Assembly (NCBI GenBank): GCA_024638285.1
Contig: JAHEKP010000008.1
Coordinates: 1-59,563, forward strand
DNA length: 59,563 nt
Source: Cryomorphaceae bacterium
Lineage (GTDB): Bacteria; Bacteroidota; Bacteroidia; Flavobacteriales; Schleiferiaceae
Direction: 5' to 3'
The position numbers and the translations under genes are program-made. Below, piece by piece: positions 9,678 through 19,086 of the stretch; the first letter of the stretch is position 1, and each line of letters opens with the position of its first letter. Under the pieces are notes generated by a model, which worked only from the letters and a program-made list of their open reading frames with translations, ran no database searches and was not told the origin of the DNA.

Positions 9678-9710
9678 AAAATCGCTCCAGAAATGGGGCG
9701 ATTTTTTTTT
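9678..9710 (+). terminator. Intrinsic terminator after the acyl-CoA dehydrogenase
   Basis: Stem ATCGCTCC (9681-9688) / GGGGCGAT (9695-9702), extendable by A-T pairs, with a 6-nt loop and a run of T to 9710. It lies 24 nt after the plus-strand stop; its T-run reaches the stop codon of the convergent lipoprotein gene. Confidence 0.85.
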
Positions 9711-10170
9711 AGTTTGAAATGCGAATGATGTTTCCACCATCAAATTGGCAAGAGAACTCTTTAACAGGCAGGAGGTAGGTGGTGTCTATGCTTTGCCCAT
9801 CCAGCGCTTGGTACTTATGACCGTTGCATCCGCAGGTTAAATAGAGATCACCCATGCTGCTACTGAGTAGACCGCAACCGTCGTTCCAATGGTAGGGGCA
9901 CGCCAATTCGTAAGCAGCAAAATCGTAATACTCTTGATCGAAATAACGACGGTAAATAACGATGCCACCGTGACCTGCGTTTGGAAGAATTAATTGGCCG
10001 CCTACAACGGTTAAATTGAAACTTGACGGGTCGCTTAAATAGACTGTTTCATCTACTAAAGGTTCCGGGATATCGTATTGTATTGCGGTCGTATTGCACC
10101 CAAAAGTCATGAAGGCAATGCCGCAAAGTGATAGTAATCGTCTGAATTTCAGTGGTATTGTTGGATTCAT
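9709..10170 (-). CDS. Rieske-like lipoprotein with altered metal-binding motif
   Basis: A 153-residue putative lipoprotein from the ATG at 10170: hydrophobic signal ending in MTFGC, a lipobox-like site. The second half (about 80-145) resembles the Rieske [2Fe-2S] fold: ELACPYHWNDGC, then LYLTCGCNGHKY and a terminal beta strand. A classical Rieske centre uses C-x-H and C-x2-H; here the first pair is C-x2-H (CPYH), so an ordinary cluster is doubtful, although the second pair (CNGH) is intact. Similar Cys-rich Rieske-like lipoproteins occur in Bacteroidota. It faces away from the receptor operon and shares a 94-bp intergenic region with it. Function unknown; assignment moderate. Confidence 0.6.
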   Translation of the reverse strand: MNPTIPLKFRRLLSLCGIAFMTFGCNTTAIQYDIPEPLVDETVYLSDPSSFNLTVVGGQLILPNAGHGGIVIYRRYFDQEYYDFAAYELACPYHWNDGCGLLSSSMGDLYLTCGCNGHKYQALDGQSIDTTYLLPVKEFSCQFDGGNIIRISN

Positions 10171-10198
10171 AGGTCTTCGCAAGATAGGTACAAATTGG

Positions 10199-10231
10199 TT
10201 GTGGTTTCTGCCGGTCTACTTCTTATATTTA
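10199..10231 (+). promoter_or_regulatory. Predicted promoter of the receptor/T9SS cargo/PorV operon
   Basis: TTG at 10199-10201 and TATATTTA at 10224-10231 (one mismatch to TAnnTTTG) with a 22-nt spacer. The first gene starts 33 nt downstream at 10265. Confidence 0.4.
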
Positions 10232-10264: not shown

Positions 10265-13200
10265 ATGGTTAAAAGAATACTCACGCTCGTTTTGACACTT
10301 AGTGTTGCGTTCAGTTTTGCGCAATCTCGTCCCGGATCTGTTAAGGGAACGGTCAAGGATAAGCGCACCGGTGAAGTCATTCCCTTCGCTACGGTAATTG
10401 TAAAAGACCGCGACGTGGTCGTTACAACCGGTACAACGGATTTTGATGGAAAGTTCAATATTAATCCAGTGAACGCAGGGATATACAATTTAACCTGTAA
10501 GTTTATTGGCTATGCTGATTTCAACCTGAATGGTGTTACTGTGAATGCAGGAAAACCAAAGGTGGTTGATTTCGATATGACGGTTGAATCGACTATGATT
10601 CAAGAAGTAACGGTTACAGCTCAAGAAGAGCTCATTGAAACGGGTAAGACTTCCGACATTGTAAGTGCAGAAGAAATTAAAAACTTACCCTACCGTAACC
10701 TTAGTCAGATCGTAGGTACTACTGCGGGTGTTTTCCAACAAGACGGTTCGGGTTCATTTAACGTTCGTGGTGCACGTTCTTCAACGAACGTTGTATTTAT
10801 TGATGGTGTGAAAGTTCGTGGGGATGTAAATATTCCTCGTGACGCGATTCTCTCTACGGAGGTAATCACCGGTGGACTTCCTGCCCAGTATGGTGATGTT
10901 ACGGGTGGTGTGATTTCTACCACTACAAAAGGCCCTGCGCCTTACTACTTTGGTTCTTCAGAGGTCTTGAGCAGTTCTTTGTTCGATCAATACCACTACA
11001 ATCTTGGCGCACTGACCTTGGGTGGACCTATTATTAGAAGTAAATCTGGCCAACCTGTTGTTGGTTTCCTTTTAGCTTCAGAATTTCAATACAATAAAGA
11101 CGGTTCGCCGCGTTCATTGGCTACTTATAAAGTAAACGATGATAAATTGGCAGAACTTCAGGCGAACCCATTGACGCCGGCTTCTAGCGGTTTCGGGGTT
11201 TTGAATTCTGCAGATTTCTTAACAGCAAACGACCTCGTCACGCAAAACTATCGTGAAAATGTTGCGAGTACTGCAGTGCGTATGTCCGGTAACCTAAAGT
11301 TTGTGACTTCAGAGAAAACGACGCTAACCATTGGGGGACGTTTCAATTTGAATCGTGGTCGCTCAGGGAGTCGATTCAACGAATTGGTGAATTACGATAA
11401 CAATGCGGAATATTTCCGTCAGGATTGGTCGACTTATGTGCGCTTCCAACAGCGTTTCGGGAATGCTTCAGACTCTTCGAATTCAATCATTCGAAATGCA
11501 TTCTACACCATTCAAATGGATTTCACGCGCAACACTGGTTTCAACAGAGATGCACGACACAAAGAGAACTTCTTTAACTATGGACATATTGGTACGTTCA
11601 AAACGACCTACCGTCCGCTGTATACTTTAGGTACTGATACCATTACGGATCCAAACGATCCTAACTATGGTAAAGTGATGAACGCATATACACAAGCCGT
11701 TTGGCAAAGTGTCAACGTTGATTATACTCCATCAGAGAATAATCCAATTCTGGCCAATTACACTTCGAACTTCTTCAATTTTGTAGAAACCAATTCCATT
11801 TTCAACAATGCGCGTTCGCTTGAAGATATCCGTGCAGGAGGAGGTTTGCTCAATGGTGATCAACCTTCGAGTGTATATGGTCTTTGGGGTAATGTAGGGG
11901 TCAATCAAAGTGGTTACAGTAAATTCTTGAACGACCAGTTCCGTATAACGGCTTCCTCAACTTTTGATATTGGTGATCATGCCCTTATCGTTGGTGTAGA
12001 ATACGAGCAGCGTTTTGACCGCTCATACGGCCTAGGAACTACTGGATTATGGACGTTAATGCGTTTGTTACAAAATGACGCCATTCGAGAATTGGACCTT
12101 AATAATCCAGTAGCCTCTTACGATAACAACGGCGTTTTTCAGGACACGCTATCCTACAATAGATTATTCGATGCTGATAAACCAAGAACGTTTGACCGCA
12201 AATTGCGCGAGGCCTTAGGATACGATCCTAACGGTACGGATTGGTTAGATATAGACAGCTACGATCCATCTACGTTCAGCTTGGATATGTTCTCAGCAAA
12301 TGAATTGTTGAATATTGGTTCTGGAGCATACGTAAGCTATTATGGTTTTGATTATTTAGGAAACCAATTAACAACTCGTCCTTCACTAAACGATTTTTAC
12401 TCTACAGATGCTCAAGGAAATTCAAAGCGACTCATTGGTGCATTTGAGCCCATTTACATGGCCGGATACATTCAGGATCAGTTCACGTTTGAAGACCTTT
12501 TCTTCAATATTGGGATACGTGTAGACCGCTTCGATGCAAACCAACCGGTACTTGCAGATCCATTCGTATTGTACCCCGCTTATACGGTAGGAGATTTAGC
12601 AAGTACTGCTCTTGCGGGCGCTCAGGTTCCTAGCGGGATGAGTGATAATGCGGTAGTTTATGTAGACGATCAAGAAAACCCTTCAACTATTGTGGGTTAC
12701 CGGGATGGTTTTACATGGTATACGGCTAACGGTGATGTTGAAGCAAACCCTAAAAACATAGCAGATGCCAGTGGCGGTATAAAGCCGTTCTTGAAGCAGC
12801 CTGGTGTAGAAGAGCAAAAATTGTCAGTAACAGCCAATGAGAGCTTCAAGGATTATGCGCCTCAGGTAACTGTGAGCCCGCGTGTATCGTTCCAATTCCC
12901 CATTTCAGATGAAGCGGAATTCTTCGCACATTACGATATTTTGGTGCAACGCCCAGACCCAGGGTTGAACCGTATGAACCCAATTACCTACTTGCAATTG
13001 GAAAACGGTGATAATGGTAACATCCTTGCCAACCCAGATCTTAAGCCACAACGCACCACAGATTATGAGATTGGTTTCCGTCAAAAGCTAAACGAAAACA
13101 GTGCACTTAAATTGAGTGCTTTCTACCGTGAGATGCGCGACATGATGCAGACCTTAAGTATGACTGAGGCCTATCCTATTACCTACATCGCCTACGGCAA

Positions 13201-13912
13201 CTTAGATTTCGCTACCACTAAAGGGTATACGGTTTCTTATGATCTCCGTAGAACAGGAAATGTACGTATGAACGCAAACTATACTCTACAGTTCGCTGAC
13301 GGTACAGGTTCAGGTGCGAATTCAGGTGCGAACATTGCACGTTCTGGACAGCCTAACTTGCGTTACATCTTGCCATTGACGTACGATTCTCGCCATCAGG
13401 TGGTTATGAATATGGATTACCGTTATGGCGGTGGACCGGAGTATAATGGTCCTGTCTTCTTCGGAAAACGTATCCTAGAAAATGCAGGTGTCAATGTAGT
13501 TTTGAATGCTAATTCTGGAACGCCATACACCCGTCGCGGTTTAGCATTCGGTCTCACAGACGCTGCAACACCAATCACAGGAAACATTAACGGTTCTCGT
13601 TTGCCTTGGAGTTTTAGAATTGATGCCACTGCAAATAAGGTTTGGAACTTTAAAAGAGATGCAACATTTAGCAACTTCGAGGTGTACGTTCAAATACTGA
13701 ATGCCTTGAATACTCAAAACATCTTGGGTGTGTACTCCTTCACAGGCTCGCCAGCCGATGACGGGTACTTAAGTTCGCCACAAGGTCAAAATGCAGTACA
13801 GTTTCAAACAAACGCACAATCGTTTGCAGATCTGTACAACATCAGTTTAGCTAACCCAGGACTATACAGTTTGCCACGTCGAATCCGTCTAGGGTTGCGT
13901 GTAGGATTATAA
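10265..13912 (+). CDS. TonB-dependent receptor with carboxypeptidase-like regulatory domain (SusC-like)
   Basis: A 1215-residue outer-membrane beta-barrel receptor. In order: signal peptide (1-20, ending SFAQ); a carboxypeptidase-regulatory-like domain (about 24-105: GTVKDKRTGEVIPFATV, then TDFDGKFNINPV); a plug domain (about 125-225: VVFIDGVKVRG, GGLPAQYGDVTGGVISTTTKG); and a barrel of nearly 1000 residues ending in RRIRLGLRVGL. Such receptors import large ligands using TonB energy. No susD lies next to it; instead the next gene, 24 nt on, encodes a T9SS-secreted protein, followed by a PorV-like gene. This suggests the barrel works with a secreted surface partner. I cannot tell the substrate. 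The start at 10265 gives a good signal peptide. Confidence 0.9.
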   Translation: MVKRILTLVLTLSVAFSFAQSRPGSVKGTVKDKRTGEVIPFATVIVKDRDVVVTTGTTDFDGKFNINPVNAGIYNLTCKFIGYADFNLNGVTVNAGKPKVVDFDMTVESTMIQEVTVTAQEELIETGKTSDIVSAEEIKNLPYRNLSQIVGTTAGVFQQDGSGSFNVRGARSSTNVVFIDGVKVRGDVNIPRDAILSTEVITGGLPAQYGDVTGGVISTTTKGPAPYYFGSSEVLSSSLFDQYHYNLGALTLGGPIIRSKSGQPVVGFLLASEFQYNKDGSPRSLATYKVNDDKLAELQANPLTPASSGFGVLNSADFLTANDLVTQNYRENVASTAVRMSGNLKFVTSEKTTLTIGGRFNLNRGRSGSRFNELVNYDNNAEYFRQDWSTYVRFQQRFGNASDSSNSIIRNAFYTIQMDFTRNTGFNRDARHKENFFNYGHIGTFKTTYRPLYTLGTDTITDPNDPNYGKVMNAYTQAVWQSVNVDYTPSENNPILANYTSNFFNFVETNSIFNNARSLEDIRAGGGLLNGDQPSSVYGLWGNVGVNQSGYSKFLNDQFRITASSTFDIGDHALIVGVEYEQRFDRSYGLGTTGLWTLMRLLQNDAIRELDLNNPVASYDNNGVFQDTLSYNRLFDADKPRTFDRKLREALGYDPNGTDWLDIDSYDPSTFSLDMFSANELLNIGSGAYVSYYGFDYLGNQLTTRPSLNDFYSTDAQGNSKRLIGAFEPIYMAGYIQDQFTFEDLFFNIGIRVDRFDANQPVLADPFVLYPAYTVGDLASTALAGAQVPSGMSDNAVVYVDDQENPSTIVGYRDGFTWYTANGDVEANPKNIADASGGIKPFLKQPGVEEQKLSVTANESFKDYAPQVTVSPRVSFQFPISDEAEFFAHYDILVQRPDPGLNRMNPITYLQLENGDNGNILANPDLKPQRTTDYEIGFRQKLNENSALKLSAFYREMRDMMQTLSMTEAYPITYIAYGNLDFATTKGYTVSYDLRRTGNVRMNANYTLQFADGTGSGANSGANIARSGQPNLRYILPLTYDSRHQVVMNMDYRYGGGPEYNGPVFFGKRILENAGVNVVLNANSGTPYTRRGLAFGLTDAATPITGNINGSRLPWSFRIDATANKVWNFKRDATFSNFEVYVQILNALNTQNILGVYSFTGSPADDGYLSSPQGQNAVQFQTNAQSFADLYNISLANPGLYSLPRRIRLGLRVGL

Positions 13913-13936
13913 TAAAGAAGCATAGGAAAACAGCAT

Positions 13937-16900
13937 ATGAAAAGAGTTTACCTCCTTTTACTTTCAACCGCTTTCGCTTTACCACTTTCAGCACGTGAGG
14001 TGCAAGGCGCGAACAAGACCACTCAAACAACGGGATCTATGAAGACCGTTGAAGAATTGTGTCAGCCTTCAAAAGCGCAAAGTGATTTAAGTATTAATAA
14101 TGTTCGCGCAACCATTCTGGGTGGTGGTGATATGTGGTGGGATTTAAATACCGCGCGCTACGAAGTACCCAAAGGATCTAACAAGCATTCGATGTTCGCA
14201 GGTTCGTTGTGGCTTGGTGGTGTTGATGAGGGTAACCAATTAAAGTTGGCTGCCATGACCTATCGTCAGGCGGGTAACGATTACTGGCCAGGTCCACTAA
14301 CTAGTGACGGTACAGCATCTACGAACAAAGAAATTTGTGATAAATACGACCGTCACTGGATTATATACCGTGAGGAAGTAGATATTCACAAAGCATGGTT
14401 GGAATGTTTAGACGATCCCAACTGTGACGAGACTGAATTATTTCCGGGTTATGAAAGTCAAATACCTGAATCAATCAAGGATTGGCCAGGAAACGGTGTA
14501 GATGGTGAATTACCTTATCAATTGGCTCCATTTATTGATCGTGACGGTGACGGCGTCTACGATTACCTTGTAGACTATCCGGCTTACGACATTGATAAGG
14601 AGTATGACTGCCGCGATAAAGAAACGGATGTACTCTATGGTGATCAAACCATCTGGTGGGTATACAACGACCGTGGAAACGTGCACACGGAATCACAAGC
14701 TGGAGCGCTGGGTTTTGAAATTCGTGCTCAAGCGTTCGCTTTCTCGACGAATGATGAGGTGAACAATATGACGTTCAACAACTACCGCATCATTAACCGT
14801 TCGACATTCCGCTTGACCAACACTTATTTCTCTACTTGGTTTGATCCAGATTTAGGTAACTATACTGATGATATCATCGGTTGTGATATTGCACGTGGTC
14901 TTGGCTATTGTTATAATTCAGATACGGAAGATGAAGGTCCTTTGGGTTATGGTTTGAACCCTCCGGCTGTTGGGTTTGACTTTTTCCAAGGTCCATTCGC
15001 AGATTACTATGACGGTATTGATAACGATCGCGACGGTTGTGTGGATGGTGTAAAAGATCCAGAAACAGGATTGTGTGTGGCTGAAGATCCAGCTACAGGT
15101 GTGAACGAACGTATTATCATGAGTCATTTCATGTACTACAACAACACCGCTTCAAACATCTCTGGTAACCCAGATAACGCAACACATTTCTACAACTATA
15201 TGCGTGCGCTATGGAAAAACGGTTCAGAGTTAATTATTGAAACTCCTTCAGGTCCAGGTGATCAAGGGAATGGTGACGGTTTTGTTGCATCAGGTAATGG
15301 TACTTCAACACAGTTTGCTTACCCAGGAATGTCTTACGATACTACGGGAGCATATCCTCCATATGCACCGGTCAACTGGTGGGAAAGTCCAGCCAACAAA
15401 GAGGATAAGCGCGGATTGCACAGTGCAGGTCCATTCTCATTGGCACCGGGTGCATTAAACTTTGTAACGACTGGAGTAGTTTGGGAGCGTGATCTTATTA
15501 ATAATGATTTGTTCGCTTCTGTAGAGAAGGTAATTATTGCTGATGATAAAGCGCAGAAACTTTTTGATAACTGTTTCCAAGTATTGAATGGTCCGGATGC
15601 TCCGGATGTTGAAATTCAGGAATTGGACCGTGAACTTATTTTGAAGTTAACGTACGGACCGGGTAGTAATAATGAAGCATTCAGCTACCGTGAGCGTGAT
15701 CCGCTTATTACTGTTAGTCCGGACGATCGTGACTCTATTTTAAATGTAAACCCAGATTATTTCGACTATAAATTTGAAGGGTTCCAGATATTCCAATTAT
15801 CGAACAGCGATGTAAGTATTTCAGATATTTACGATCCAACACAAAGTCGTTTGGTAGCGCAGTGTGATGTCAAAAATGGGATCACCCAGTTGATCAATTG
15901 GGAGGTAGATCCAGATTTGAATGCCCTTGTGCCACAAGACATGACGCTAACTACGAATAACAGCGGGGTATTTACATCGTTCCAAGTGCGTGAAGATGTC
16001 TTTGCTACAGGAGATCGTTCGTTGATCAACCACAAGGAATACTACTTCACGATCATTGCATACGGTCAAAACCAATATGAAGTGTTCAACCCTACTATTG
16101 CTCCGGGTGGTCAAAAAATACCATTCTTAGCGGGTCGTCGTAACATTAAGACCTATACGGCTATTCCACATCAGATTGATTCAGAAAAGGGCGGTACTAT
16201 TCAGGTTGCGCAGTACGGTGATGGTCCGGAAATCACACGATTGGATGGTGTGGGTAACGGCGGAGGTGAGTTAGAACTGACCTTAACAGAAGTAAAAGAC
16301 ATCATGGACGGCAACGGCTCGGGCCAACCTACCTACATGGGCGGTTTAGGACCAGTAGCTATAAAAGTGGTTGATCCGTTGGAAGTGAAGAATGGAGAAT
16401 ATACCCTGACTCTTGATGGATCTAGTGGAAATGCGCAGTGGGAAATCACAGATGGAAGTGGTGCAGTGATAGCAACTGCGGATACGACCATATCTTTCTA
16501 CAATGAGCAAATTATTCCTGAATTGGGCTTATCGGTTGCAATGCAACAGGCACCAGCACCGGGAGGTGACGACGAAGGAACGTATGATAACGGTGTTATC
16601 TTCTCTGAAATCATCTATGAGGATCCATCAAAAGAATGGTGGTCAGGTATTGCTGATGATAAGAGCTATACTCCATACAACTGGATTCTCGCGGGTACGA
16701 ACAGTTTCCCAACAGAAGAGCCTGCAACATTATATCCAGATCAAGATGGTGATGCAAAAGGCTATTTTGAGAATATCGTAGATGGAACTTGGGGACCGTA
16801 TATGTATGCATCGGCAAACAACCGTTCTACTGTAAATGGTTTCAATAACTACGGTATGGGTCCTGCCCAGAGTATCGGTAGGAATTTAAATGATGCTTCT

Positions 16901-17959
16901 GATCTGCATTCTGTAGATATTGTATTTACAACAGATGTCAGTAAATGGACCCGTGTTCCAGTATTTGAAATGGCTGAAGATGCAGCATTGAGCGAACATG
17001 GCGATAAGAAATTGACCCAGCGTCAAGATACTTCTTGGACTCTAGAAAATGGGGTATTGAAAAGAGCACCAGGTCTAGAGCCCGGTTGGTCTTATTTCCC
17101 GGGATATGCTATAGATATTGAGACAGGTAAGCGCTTGAACATGGCCTTTGGTGAGAACTCGTGGTTGCCAGGTGAAAACGGTAATGATATGTTGTGGAAT
17201 CCAACGGACAGAGAATTCTTGCCACCTGGAAATACAGTAAATGGCGGTTATGTCTTTGGTGGTCAGCATGTGATCTACGTCTTCGCGGATGAAGATAAAA
17301 TAGGTGGGTCTACAACGGATCTAGAATACCAAGGTGCTAATCCAAATGATTGGCCGCTTAAAGATTTGATGGCAGATCTCGTCAAAACGGGGGGGTTAGG
17401 AAACATAGCTAAAGCAAACTTCTGGAGAGCTTGTCGTTGGATCGGTATGCCTACTTTACGTCGTGGAATGGATTTCGATCCATATACGGAGCTGCCAACT
17501 CAAACGCGAATCCGTATTCGAATGAATACAGCGTACGCAAATAGAGAATTGGCAGATGCTCCAAACGATGGTAATCCGCAATTCCTTTTCAATACGTCGA
17601 ATATAGCGACGAGAACGTATCAGGATACCATTGGTAAGACTGCAATGGAGACCATTCGTGTCGTACCTAATCCATACTACGGCTTTAGTACGTATGAATC
17701 CTCTCAGTTAGATAATATAGTTAAGATTACGAATCTTCCGGAAACGTGTACCATTAGCATCTTTACGCCAAACGGTACCATGATTCGTCAGATCCGTAAA
17801 GACAATAGCATGACCTATGTGGAATGGGATATGAAAAACACCTACAGTGTGCCTATAGCATCTGGTGTTTATATCATTCACGTCGATGCAGGTGAGCTCG
17901 GTGAAAAAATTGTGAAATGGTTCGGTGCGTTACGTCCGGTCGATTTGAACTCATTCTAA
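13937..17959 (+). CDS. Large T9SS-secreted surface protein of unknown function
   Basis: A 1340-residue protein with a signal peptide (1-19, ending LSA). The N-terminal region has the sequence INNVRATILGGGDMWWD then YEVPKGSNKHSMFAGSLWLGG, which I have seen only in uncharacterised Bacteroidota/Ignavibacteria surface proteins. Asp-rich, calcium-site-like loops occur at about 200-208 (DRDGDGVYD) and 360-369 (DNDRDGCVDG), and another lies near 936 (DQDGDAKG). The last 90 residues form a T9SS type A-like C-terminal domain (VVPNPYYGFS, then ISIFTPNGTMIRQIR, then SGVYIIHVDAGELGEKIVKW), extended by a short tail ending LNSF. It is expected on the cell surface or in the medium. It lies 24 nt after the receptor and 13 nt before the PorV-like gene, so the three are co-transcribed. 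No enzymatic motif was recognised. Confidence 0.8.
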   Translation: MKRVYLLLLSTAFALPLSAREVQGANKTTQTTGSMKTVEELCQPSKAQSDLSINNVRATILGGGDMWWDLNTARYEVPKGSNKHSMFAGSLWLGGVDEGNQLKLAAMTYRQAGNDYWPGPLTSDGTASTNKEICDKYDRHWIIYREEVDIHKAWLECLDDPNCDETELFPGYESQIPESIKDWPGNGVDGELPYQLAPFIDRDGDGVYDYLVDYPAYDIDKEYDCRDKETDVLYGDQTIWWVYNDRGNVHTESQAGALGFEIRAQAFAFSTNDEVNNMTFNNYRIINRSTFRLTNTYFSTWFDPDLGNYTDDIIGCDIARGLGYCYNSDTEDEGPLGYGLNPPAVGFDFFQGPFADYYDGIDNDRDGCVDGVKDPETGLCVAEDPATGVNERIIMSHFMYYNNTASNISGNPDNATHFYNYMRALWKNGSELIIETPSGPGDQGNGDGFVASGNGTSTQFAYPGMSYDTTGAYPPYAPVNWWESPANKEDKRGLHSAGPFSLAPGALNFVTTGVVWERDLINNDLFASVEKVIIADDKAQKLFDNCFQVLNGPDAPDVEIQELDRELILKLTYGPGSNNEAFSYRERDPLITVSPDDRDSILNVNPDYFDYKFEGFQIFQLSNSDVSISDIYDPTQSRLVAQCDVKNGITQLINWEVDPDLNALVPQDMTLTTNNSGVFTSFQVREDVFATGDRSLINHKEYYFTIIAYGQNQYEVFNPTIAPGGQKIPFLAGRRNIKTYTAIPHQIDSEKGGTIQVAQYGDGPEITRLDGVGNGGGELELTLTEVKDIMDGNGSGQPTYMGGLGPVAIKVVDPLEVKNGEYTLTLDGSSGNAQWEITDGSGAVIATADTTISFYNEQIIPELGLSVAMQQAPAPGGDDEGTYDNGVIFSEIIYEDPSKEWWSGIADDKSYTPYNWILAGTNSFPTEEPATLYPDQDGDAKGYFENIVDGTWGPYMYASANNRSTVNGFNNYGMGPAQSIGRNLNDASDLHSVDIVFTTDVSKWTRVPVFEMAEDAALSEHGDKKLTQRQDTSWTLENGVLKRAPGLEPGWSYFPGYAIDIETGKRLNMAFGENSWLPGENGNDMLWNPTDREFLPPGNTVNGGYVFGGQHVIYVFADEDKIGGSTTDLEYQGANPNDWPLKDLMADLVKTGGLGNIAKANFWRACRWIGMPTLRRGMDFDPYTELPTQTRIRIRMNTAYANRELADAPNDGNPQFLFNTSNIATRTYQDTIGKTAMETIRVVPNPYYGFSTYESSQLDNIVKITNLPETCTISIFTPNGTMIRQIRKDNSMTYVEWDMKNTYSVPIASGVYIIHVDAGELGEKIVKWFGALRPVDLNSF

Positions 17960-17972
17960 GCGAAAAAGACCT

Positions 17973-19016
17973 ATGAAATTTAAATCTTATATCGCAGCTT
18001 TTCTTTCTGTAGCCGTAATGGGTACAGTGAATGCAGGTAATCCACAACGTGCAGGTTCTGCCGGTGCGGGAGAATTATTGATTAATCCGTTTGCACGCTC
18101 GGCAGGGTGGGGCTCAGTGAACGTAGCAGGTGCTACTGGAATGGACGCAACCTTTTTGAATATTGCAGGTATAGCGGCAACAGATCTGAACACGCAAGTA
18201 ACGTTCAACAACACCCAATGGTTGGTTGGTGCAGGCATTAACATGAACGGTGCTACGCTCATCCAGCGCGTAAGTGACGTAGGTGTACTTAGCTTGGGCT
18301 TATCCGCTTTTGACTATGGCCAGTGGGAAGTAACTACGGAAGACCAGCCGGAAGGAACGGGAGCGACAATTAGTCCGCAGAGTTTGATCATCAACATGGG
18401 ATATGCTCAGAAATTTACTGAGAATATTTATGGAGGGGTGAACGTTAAACTTTACAGCAGTTCTATTTCTAATCTCAATACCAATGGTGTTTGTTTTGAC
18501 GCAGGTGTGCAGTACCGTACAGGGGAGGAAGACCGATTCAAATTTGGAATTACCTTGAAAAACGTTGGACCTAGTATCACCTACCAAGGCGATGGATTGG
18601 GTATAACCTTGCCCGTACCAACCTATGGTGTAGCATACTCTCAGACGTTTGAAAGTCGTTCCGCAAAGTTTGAGCTACCTACTCAATTGAGTATTGGTGG
18701 GTCATACGATTGGTTTTTAGCCAATGGCAAAGTAACGGGAGCGTTGAACTTTAGCTCAAATTCCTTTGAGAAGGATACCTATCATGCCGGAGTGCAATAC
18801 AGCTTAAAGGATTTATTCCAAGTACGCGTAGGCTACAAGGCCTTCGATAACCGTGCGGACGATCTAGGAACGAGTGCTATTTCAGGAATTTGCGGTGGAT
18901 TTAGTTTTAATGTCCCCACAAGTGATGAAGGTAGTTTTGCCATTGATTATTCGTACCGTGGTACGACATCGGCATTTGGAGGCATTCACTCTATTGGTGT
19001 GCGCATCAACTTGTAA
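17973..19016 (+). CDS. PorV/PorQ family outer-membrane protein
   Basis: A 347-residue FadL-like beta-barrel of the PorV/PorQ family. Signal peptide 1-21 (ending VNA), then the family hallmark GSAGAGELLINPFARSAG and GATGMDATFLNIAGIA, amphipathic strands throughout, and a C-terminal strand ending GIHSIGVRINL. PorV itself carries T9SS substrates from the translocon to the attachment complex; paralogues next to cargo genes may act as dedicated shuttles. Its position 13 nt after a T9SS cargo gene supports such a role, by inference. A terminator hairpin follows at 19047. Confidence 0.85.
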   Translation: MKFKSYIAAFLSVAVMGTVNAGNPQRAGSAGAGELLINPFARSAGWGSVNVAGATGMDATFLNIAGIAATDLNTQVTFNNTQWLVGAGINMNGATLIQRVSDVGVLSLGLSAFDYGQWEVTTEDQPEGTGATISPQSLIINMGYAQKFTENIYGGVNVKLYSSSISNLNTNGVCFDAGVQYRTGEEDRFKFGITLKNVGPSITYQGDGLGITLPVPTYGVAYSQTFESRSAKFELPTQLSIGGSYDWFLANGKVTGALNFSSNSFEKDTYHAGVQYSLKDLFQVRVGYKAFDNRADDLGTSAISGICGGFSFNVPTSDEGSFAIDYSYRGTTSAFGGIHSIGVRINL

Positions 19017-19028
19017 TAGATAAAGAAC

Positions 19029-19036
19029 TAACTTTG
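19029..19036 (+). promoter_or_regulatory. Predicted -7 box upstream of greA
   Basis: TAACTTTG, an exact TAnnTTTG match, 13 nt after the PorV-like stop. Transcription would begin near 19042, just before the hairpin at 19047-19065. Confidence 0.45.
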
Positions 19037-19046
19037 TACCTACAAG

Positions 19047-19070
19047 AGAGGCCGTTATGGCCTCTTTTTT
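19047..19070 (+). terminator. Intrinsic terminator after the PorV-like gene
   Basis: A 7-bp stem AGAGGCC / GGCCTCT with a 5-nt loop, then six T (19065-19070). It ends the receptor operon. If the TAACTTTG box at 19029 is used, the same hairpin would form at the 5' end of the greA mRNA. Confidence 0.75.
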
Positions 19071-19086
19071 AGTAATACCATTAGCC

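Follow-up and report, generated by a model that had tools for sequence, protein, structure and literature searches.

A TonB-dependent receptor, a predicted T9SS cargo and a PorV-family barrel inherited together in Bacteroidota: a candidate carrier-cargo pair coupled to an importer

What might a TonB-dependent receptor, a predicted T9SS cargo and a barrel of the PorV/PorQ family do together when their genes stand in this order in one operon? The question is raised by a locus in a 59,563-nucleotide stretch of DNA from a Cryomorphaceae bacterium of the order Flavobacteriales, probably of the Schleiferiaceae (the window, by which we mean the whole stretch analysed), which belongs to contig C62 of a genome of 1.71 Mb that is 91% complete. 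A preliminary description took the operon for a SusC-like receptor without a susD partner, a T9SS-exported protein in that place and a PorV paralogue as a possible shuttle, together forming a self-contained uptake or adhesion module. The reading that we favour, with a probability of about 0.58, is that the operon couples a TonB importer to a T9SS cargo and its cognate carrier, an assembly that would be SusCD-like in its working and unrelated to SusD. The features of the locus are as follows.

10199..10231, + strand: weak promoter-like element TTG-N22-TATATTTA, Bacteroidota-like with one mismatch
10265..13912, + strand: TonB-dependent receptor of 1215 aa with CarboxypepD_reg, plug and barrel, not SusC/RagA (domain matches, orthologues)
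13937..17959, + strand: predicted T9SS cargo of 1340 aa with signal peptide, no lipobox and no Pfam family (ORF, profile searches)
14054..15583, + strand: cargo N-terminal domain, residues about 40-549, predicted beta-supersandwich fold (AlphaFold2 pLDDT 85.3)
16139..17623, + strand: middle part of the cargo (residues about 735-1229), for most of which a fold is predicted with confidence
17624..17956, + strand: predicted Ig-like C-terminal sorting domain (CTD) of the cargo, residues about 1230-1340, fold closest to the PorZ and PorU CTDs
17973..19016, + strand: PorV/PorQ-family outer-membrane barrel of 347 aa, in a clade of its own (family match, tree)
19047..19071, + strand: hairpin terminator AGAGGCC-GTTAT-GGCCTCT-TTTTTT (folding dG -17 kcal/mol, z -5.7, T-run)

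The layout of the operon is as first described: three open reading frames on one strand, the first gap measuring 24 nt and the second 13 nt, each product beginning with a signal-peptide-like N terminus that has no lipobox cysteine. The single terminator also stands, as a hairpin with a T-run whose stem is conserved within the genus while its loop varies. The single shared promoter is less secure. No sigma-70 match was found in the gap upstream of the receptor gene, although the weak Bacteroidota-like element is present there, and its second box, TTATATTTAC, is conserved in two relatives; matches of the type TTG-N22-TATATTTA with one mismatch are expected by chance about once per kb. Between the barrel gene and greA, just 5' of the terminator hairpin, lies a Bacteroidota -7-like box, TAACTTTG (19029-19036), so greA may have its own promoter. 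On the other side of the operon, a gene at 9709-10182 is transcribed divergently and encodes a small protein bearing a Rieske-like motif (CPYH, CGCNGHKY). This gene stays beside the receptor in the family and in several families of the order, and a link between this protein and the three-gene module is possible.

The receptor carries the regulatory and plug domains attributed to it, both over their cut-offs: CarboxypepD_reg (PF13620) scores 63.8 bits against 32.3 and the plug (PF07715) 42.5 bits against 23.9. Contrary to what had been supposed, it is not SusC-like, for the SusC/RagA models TIGR04056 and TIGR04057 gave no match to it at E 0.1. The trio does lack a susD gene, but this is unremarkable: since the receptor is TonB-dependent and not SusC-like, no susD is missing, and we have dropped the idea of a SusC that lost its partner. 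The genome holds 17 plug-bearing receptors, the window receptor among them, and three SusD genes on contigs C13, C36 and C60, where a different TonB receptor lies a few kb from each; together with the unmatched SusC/RagA models, this places the window receptor in another kind. Searched against its own genome, the orthologue profile gave 1013 bits for the receptor fragment of the triad and 183 bits for the next-best receptor fragment.

The cargo matched no Pfam family, the SusD domain included, and has no cysteine within its first 30 residues, so it has no lipobox. Tested as a SusD/RagB surface lipoprotein, which would have both a SusD domain and a lipobox cysteine, it shows neither. The sequences of the cargo, the receptor and the CTD gave no useful match to solved structures. 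The predicted N-terminal domain of the cargo resembles the N-terminal domains of GH94, GH15, GH65 and GH116 enzymes (best VIA Z 19.5, at an rmsd of 3.2 for 253 residues), while the catalytic alpha/alpha barrel is absent from the model after the beta-supersandwich domain. A predicted fold in common with glycoside hydrolases is no demonstration of binding. Three proteins of about 560 aa found outside triads (L065, L066, L067) consist of the N-terminal domain alone, which is therefore also used by itself.

The preliminary description had recognized a sorting domain at the end of the cargo. By score alone this would fail, as the CTD reaches 21.1 bits with TIGR04183, below the cut-off of 23, and the cargo has no match to PF18962 (type A), but the predicted structure bears it out. 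The model shows the Ig-like fold of type A sorting domains and is closest to the CTD of PorZ (Z 10.2, rmsd 2.7, 90 residues), then PorU (8.8), then mirolase, with the CTDs of RemZ and NucA at 7.0. TIGR04183 likewise misses the CTDs of most divergent operon cargos. The two type A CTDs that have been described as escaping cleavage belong to PorZ and PorU and stay on PorQ and PorV respectively, and the type C sorting domain is the ChiA-type CTD family (PMC10202324). Within the cargo alignments Lys1327 is invariant, and an extra conserved tail ends at Phe1340; judged by position, Lys1327 may equal the PorV-contacting lysine of other type A CTDs (RemZ Lys1110, PMC10994853). Two other identities were rejected. 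A type B cargo would match PF13585 or TIGR04131, which it does not, and the cargo is absent from the places in the genome where PF13585 matches; the NCBIfam PorZ match spans only the CTD and is no ground for calling the cargo PorZ. A PorZ match is missing from the whole genome at its 91% completeness, whether through missing assembly or real loss.

The third gene is a member of the PorV/PorQ family, as first proposed, with 151.7 bits against the NF033709 cut-off of 90. It is neither PorV nor PorQ itself: its scores against the PorV, PorQ and PorV2 equivalog models (70.1, 75.3 and 21.2 bits) are far below the cut-offs of 250, 220 and 325, and a tree of 87 PorV-family proteins gathers the 32 triad barrels in a single clade (SH-aLRT 99), separate from all three. 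The same genome has a separate PorV beside PorU on C40, a PorQ-like gene on C52 (219 bits, one below the cut-off) and SprA elsewhere, so genes for the translocon and for the known carriers coexist with the triad.

A parallel segregation is seen in the CTDs. Thirty operon CTDs form one clade (95), apart from those of PorU, PorZ and free cargo, and the grouping of CTDs by carrier (PorU, PorZ, free type A cargo, operon cargo) needs 4 changes on the tree, with a minimum of 3 and a mean of 42.7 in shuffles. Two strays fall inside the operon CTD clade, both from variant operons that also bear a PorV-like barrel. A dedicated carrier would fit both the separate barrel clade and the separate CTD clade. 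Joint duplication of the operon would also make the CTD and barrel trees agree without direct contact; as joint descent explains part of the segregation, the pattern supports pairing and proves no contact.

The preliminary description had named, among the checks of its reading, joint occurrence in Bacteroidota and agreement of the three phylogenies. Both favour it: across the phylum the three genes are inherited together with their order kept, and the receptor, cargo and barrel trees have 34-38 of 47 splits in common, a figure that never exceeds 2 in shuffles. Agreement with the trees of the trio is lower for the short greA tree. The named contig scan used the order-level cargo alignment, the broad alignment being too diverse, and for this reason favours close relatives. 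The order receptor, cargo, barrel is found at 112 loci (107 distinct barrels), where both gaps have a median of 24 nt, the remaining loci being mostly contig ends or stand-alone cargo paralogues. Within the order, the trio is present at every sampled main-cargo locus with enough flank, usually between a divergent upstream gene and greA-HIT-ruvC, and the block from that upstream gene to ruvC is syntenic. All 24 MAGs of the same genus that were searched have at least a fragment of the cargo. Across the phylum, strong cargo homologues occur in 37 of 392 genomes, most again between a receptor and a PorV-like barrel. Although greA lies 3' of the trio in most close relatives, it is nearby in only 6 of 27 phylum-level triads, and the trio is thus more durable than its neighbourhood.

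Absence follows the same pattern, and the families do not occur independently: the 14 genomes of the order without the cargo lack orthologues of both the receptor and the barrel. Stand-alone cargos complicate the picture. Of 13 genomes that have one, 10 carry both receptor and barrel, which in 7 of the 10 lie one cargo's length apart; one carries the receptor only and two neither, and these three, all MAGs, count against the reading that we favour. So do the stand-alone full-length cargo paralogues themselves, which have no linked barrel. Full-length cargo genes without an adjoining barrel were found at L174, L175, L178, L187, L208, L218 and L226; most of their genomes carry receptor and barrel elsewhere, and in that of L218 the barrel is about 42 kb from the receptor. 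By analogy with orphan type B cargo, which share one carrier, such unlinked cargos may use the barrel of the triad jointly.

Some genomes of the phylum have between 9 and 26 PorV-family genes. To see their surroundings, we took 20 that are neither PorV nor PorQ from nine genomes, picked regardless of their neighbours. A TonB receptor adjoins every one of the 20, and in 16 the order is receptor, very divergent cargo and barrel. The other four (L313, L315, L321, L329) are variant operons, in which the PorV-like barrel comes directly after the receptor and the product of the next gene has an NHL-like C terminus, which Pfam confirms for L313 alone; three of the four also encode, a few genes upstream, a separate protein with an operon-type CTD. 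Beside the divergent triads lie genes of varied kinds (amidase, GH9, peptidase, MFS, oxidoreductase), so their substrates probably differ. One divergent triad is adjoined, at L310:2062-4068, by a gene of the GH9 cellulase family whose product carries an ordinary type A sorting domain.

In the mechanism that we propose, the signal peptide would take the cargo across the inner membrane, and the PorZ/PorU-like CTD would serve its passage of the outer membrane through SprA, the general T9SS translocon. In the established model, a carrier barrel docks at SprA, its loops bind the CTD and it is pulled off with the cargo (PMC10994853). The downstream PorV-family barrel would be the cognate carrier, taking the cargo from SprA instead of PorV, and would probably remain bound to the uncleaved CTD, anchoring the cargo in the membrane in the way that PorQ holds PorZ and PorP/SprF holds type B cargo. 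There are published precedents. The gene for PorP/SprF, the carrier of type B cargo, commonly stands immediately after the cargo gene, and the pairing of CTD and carrier decides where the cargo ends up (PMC12618676); the PorZ CTD is retained on PorQ, and PorV-like barrels have been proposed to shield CTDs (PMC10202324). If the carrier also anchors the cargo beside the receptor of the same operon, the cargo can be the ligand-binding partner of that receptor. It would sit over or beside the receptor and capture ligand for import, which is the job of SusD for SusC. Such a module would not be 'self-contained', a term that was too strong because export would still need SprA, encoded elsewhere in the genome.

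In the main alternative, the cargo would be exported by the general carrier PorV and joined to LPS by PorU, with the barrel acting as a FadL-like channel or as a structural barrel of the receptor complex; the trio would still be one uptake unit. We consider this unlikely, while giving it serious weight. In the published view, PorV serves every type A sorting domain and type B cargo has carriers of its own; the type A CTDs tested so far do use PorV (PMC12618676, PMC10994853), and the genome of the window has both PorV and PorU. PorV moreover has the FadL fold, and the FadL-like BamG is a structural subunit, not a shuttle (PMC12578637). Against export by PorV stand two observations: the type of CTD tracks linkage to the barrel, and the operon CTDs are missed by type A models and look like those of PorZ and PorU, which are retained.

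An adhesin or sensing complex, with the cargo as a surface adhesin or ligand sensor and the receptor anchoring it or signalling instead of importing nutrients, seems to us rather improbable. Many T9SS proteins are adhesins, and the varied neighbours of the divergent triads fix no single role. However, a plug-bearing TonB receptor comes first in every operon, no anti-sigma or signalling gene adjoins the window triad, and a published alginate locus of Rhodothermus marinus has the triad in the position of SusCD (PMC9530828). By analogy, this gene context favours uptake over adhesion for at least one distant relative, and suggests glycan uptake there. Finally, we dropped hitchhiking on greA: that the order is kept simply by slow rearrangement near greA-HIT-ruvC, among genes that do not work together, agrees with the synteny from the divergent upstream gene to ruvC but is scarcely credible when the triad is kept without greA at 21 of 27 phylum-level loci, turns up again as divergent paralogues at unrelated sites and, where it is lost, goes as a whole.

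The preferred reading, of a carrier-cargo pair coupled to an importer, is thus largely supported as regards co-inheritance and plausible in mechanism, with export by the barrel and a complex with the receptor put forward as proposals from sequence. More tentatively, and at somewhat less than even odds, the trio may be a second build of Bacteroidota surface uptake complexes, independent of SusD, of which some genomes hold many copies, each specific to its substrate. If a subtype of CTD does have PorV-family barrels as its cognate carriers, the question of how one translocon directs cargo to different destinations can be tested for each pair in turn. A possible partner would then be named for many TonB receptors without SusD, and many genes whose annotation goes no further than 'PorV/PorQ family protein' or hypothetical would gain function hypotheses. 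In this streamlined marine genome (~1.7 Mb), the receptor of the trio is one of the 17 with a plug.

To judge from the open-access literature that we searched, the trio seems to be an alternative, so far undescribed, to the pairs by which Bacteroidota classically take up nutrients; no description of the three-gene module was found there, and one figure legend shows the arrangement (PMC9530828). This is the R. marinus alginate locus, where a tonB gene, a T9SS sorting-domain gene and a PorV/PorQ-family gene are followed by lyases; it is likened to the trio by gene order and annotation alone, and its cargo is about half the size. With type B cargo and PorP/SprF, as in F. johnsoniae and P. gingivalis, the trio has in common a carrier-type barrel gene directly downstream of the cargo, but it has a CTD of predicted Ig-like type A fold, a barrel of the PorV/PorQ family and a TonB receptor before the pair. 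The attachment complex of PorZ/PorQ and PorU/PorV offers the nearest fold, a type A-like CTD held on a PorV-family barrel, as we infer for the trio; in the trio, however, the CTD and barrel clades are separate, the operon includes a TonB receptor and the cargo is neither PorZ nor PorU. SusC/SusD (RagA/RagB) is alike in placing a TonB receptor gene beside that of a large surface partner and in having divergent paralogues. Unlike SusC/SusD, the trio has a receptor unmatched by the SusC/RagA models, a partner that is a predicted T9SS substrate with neither SusD domain nor lipobox, and a PorV-family barrel as its third gene.
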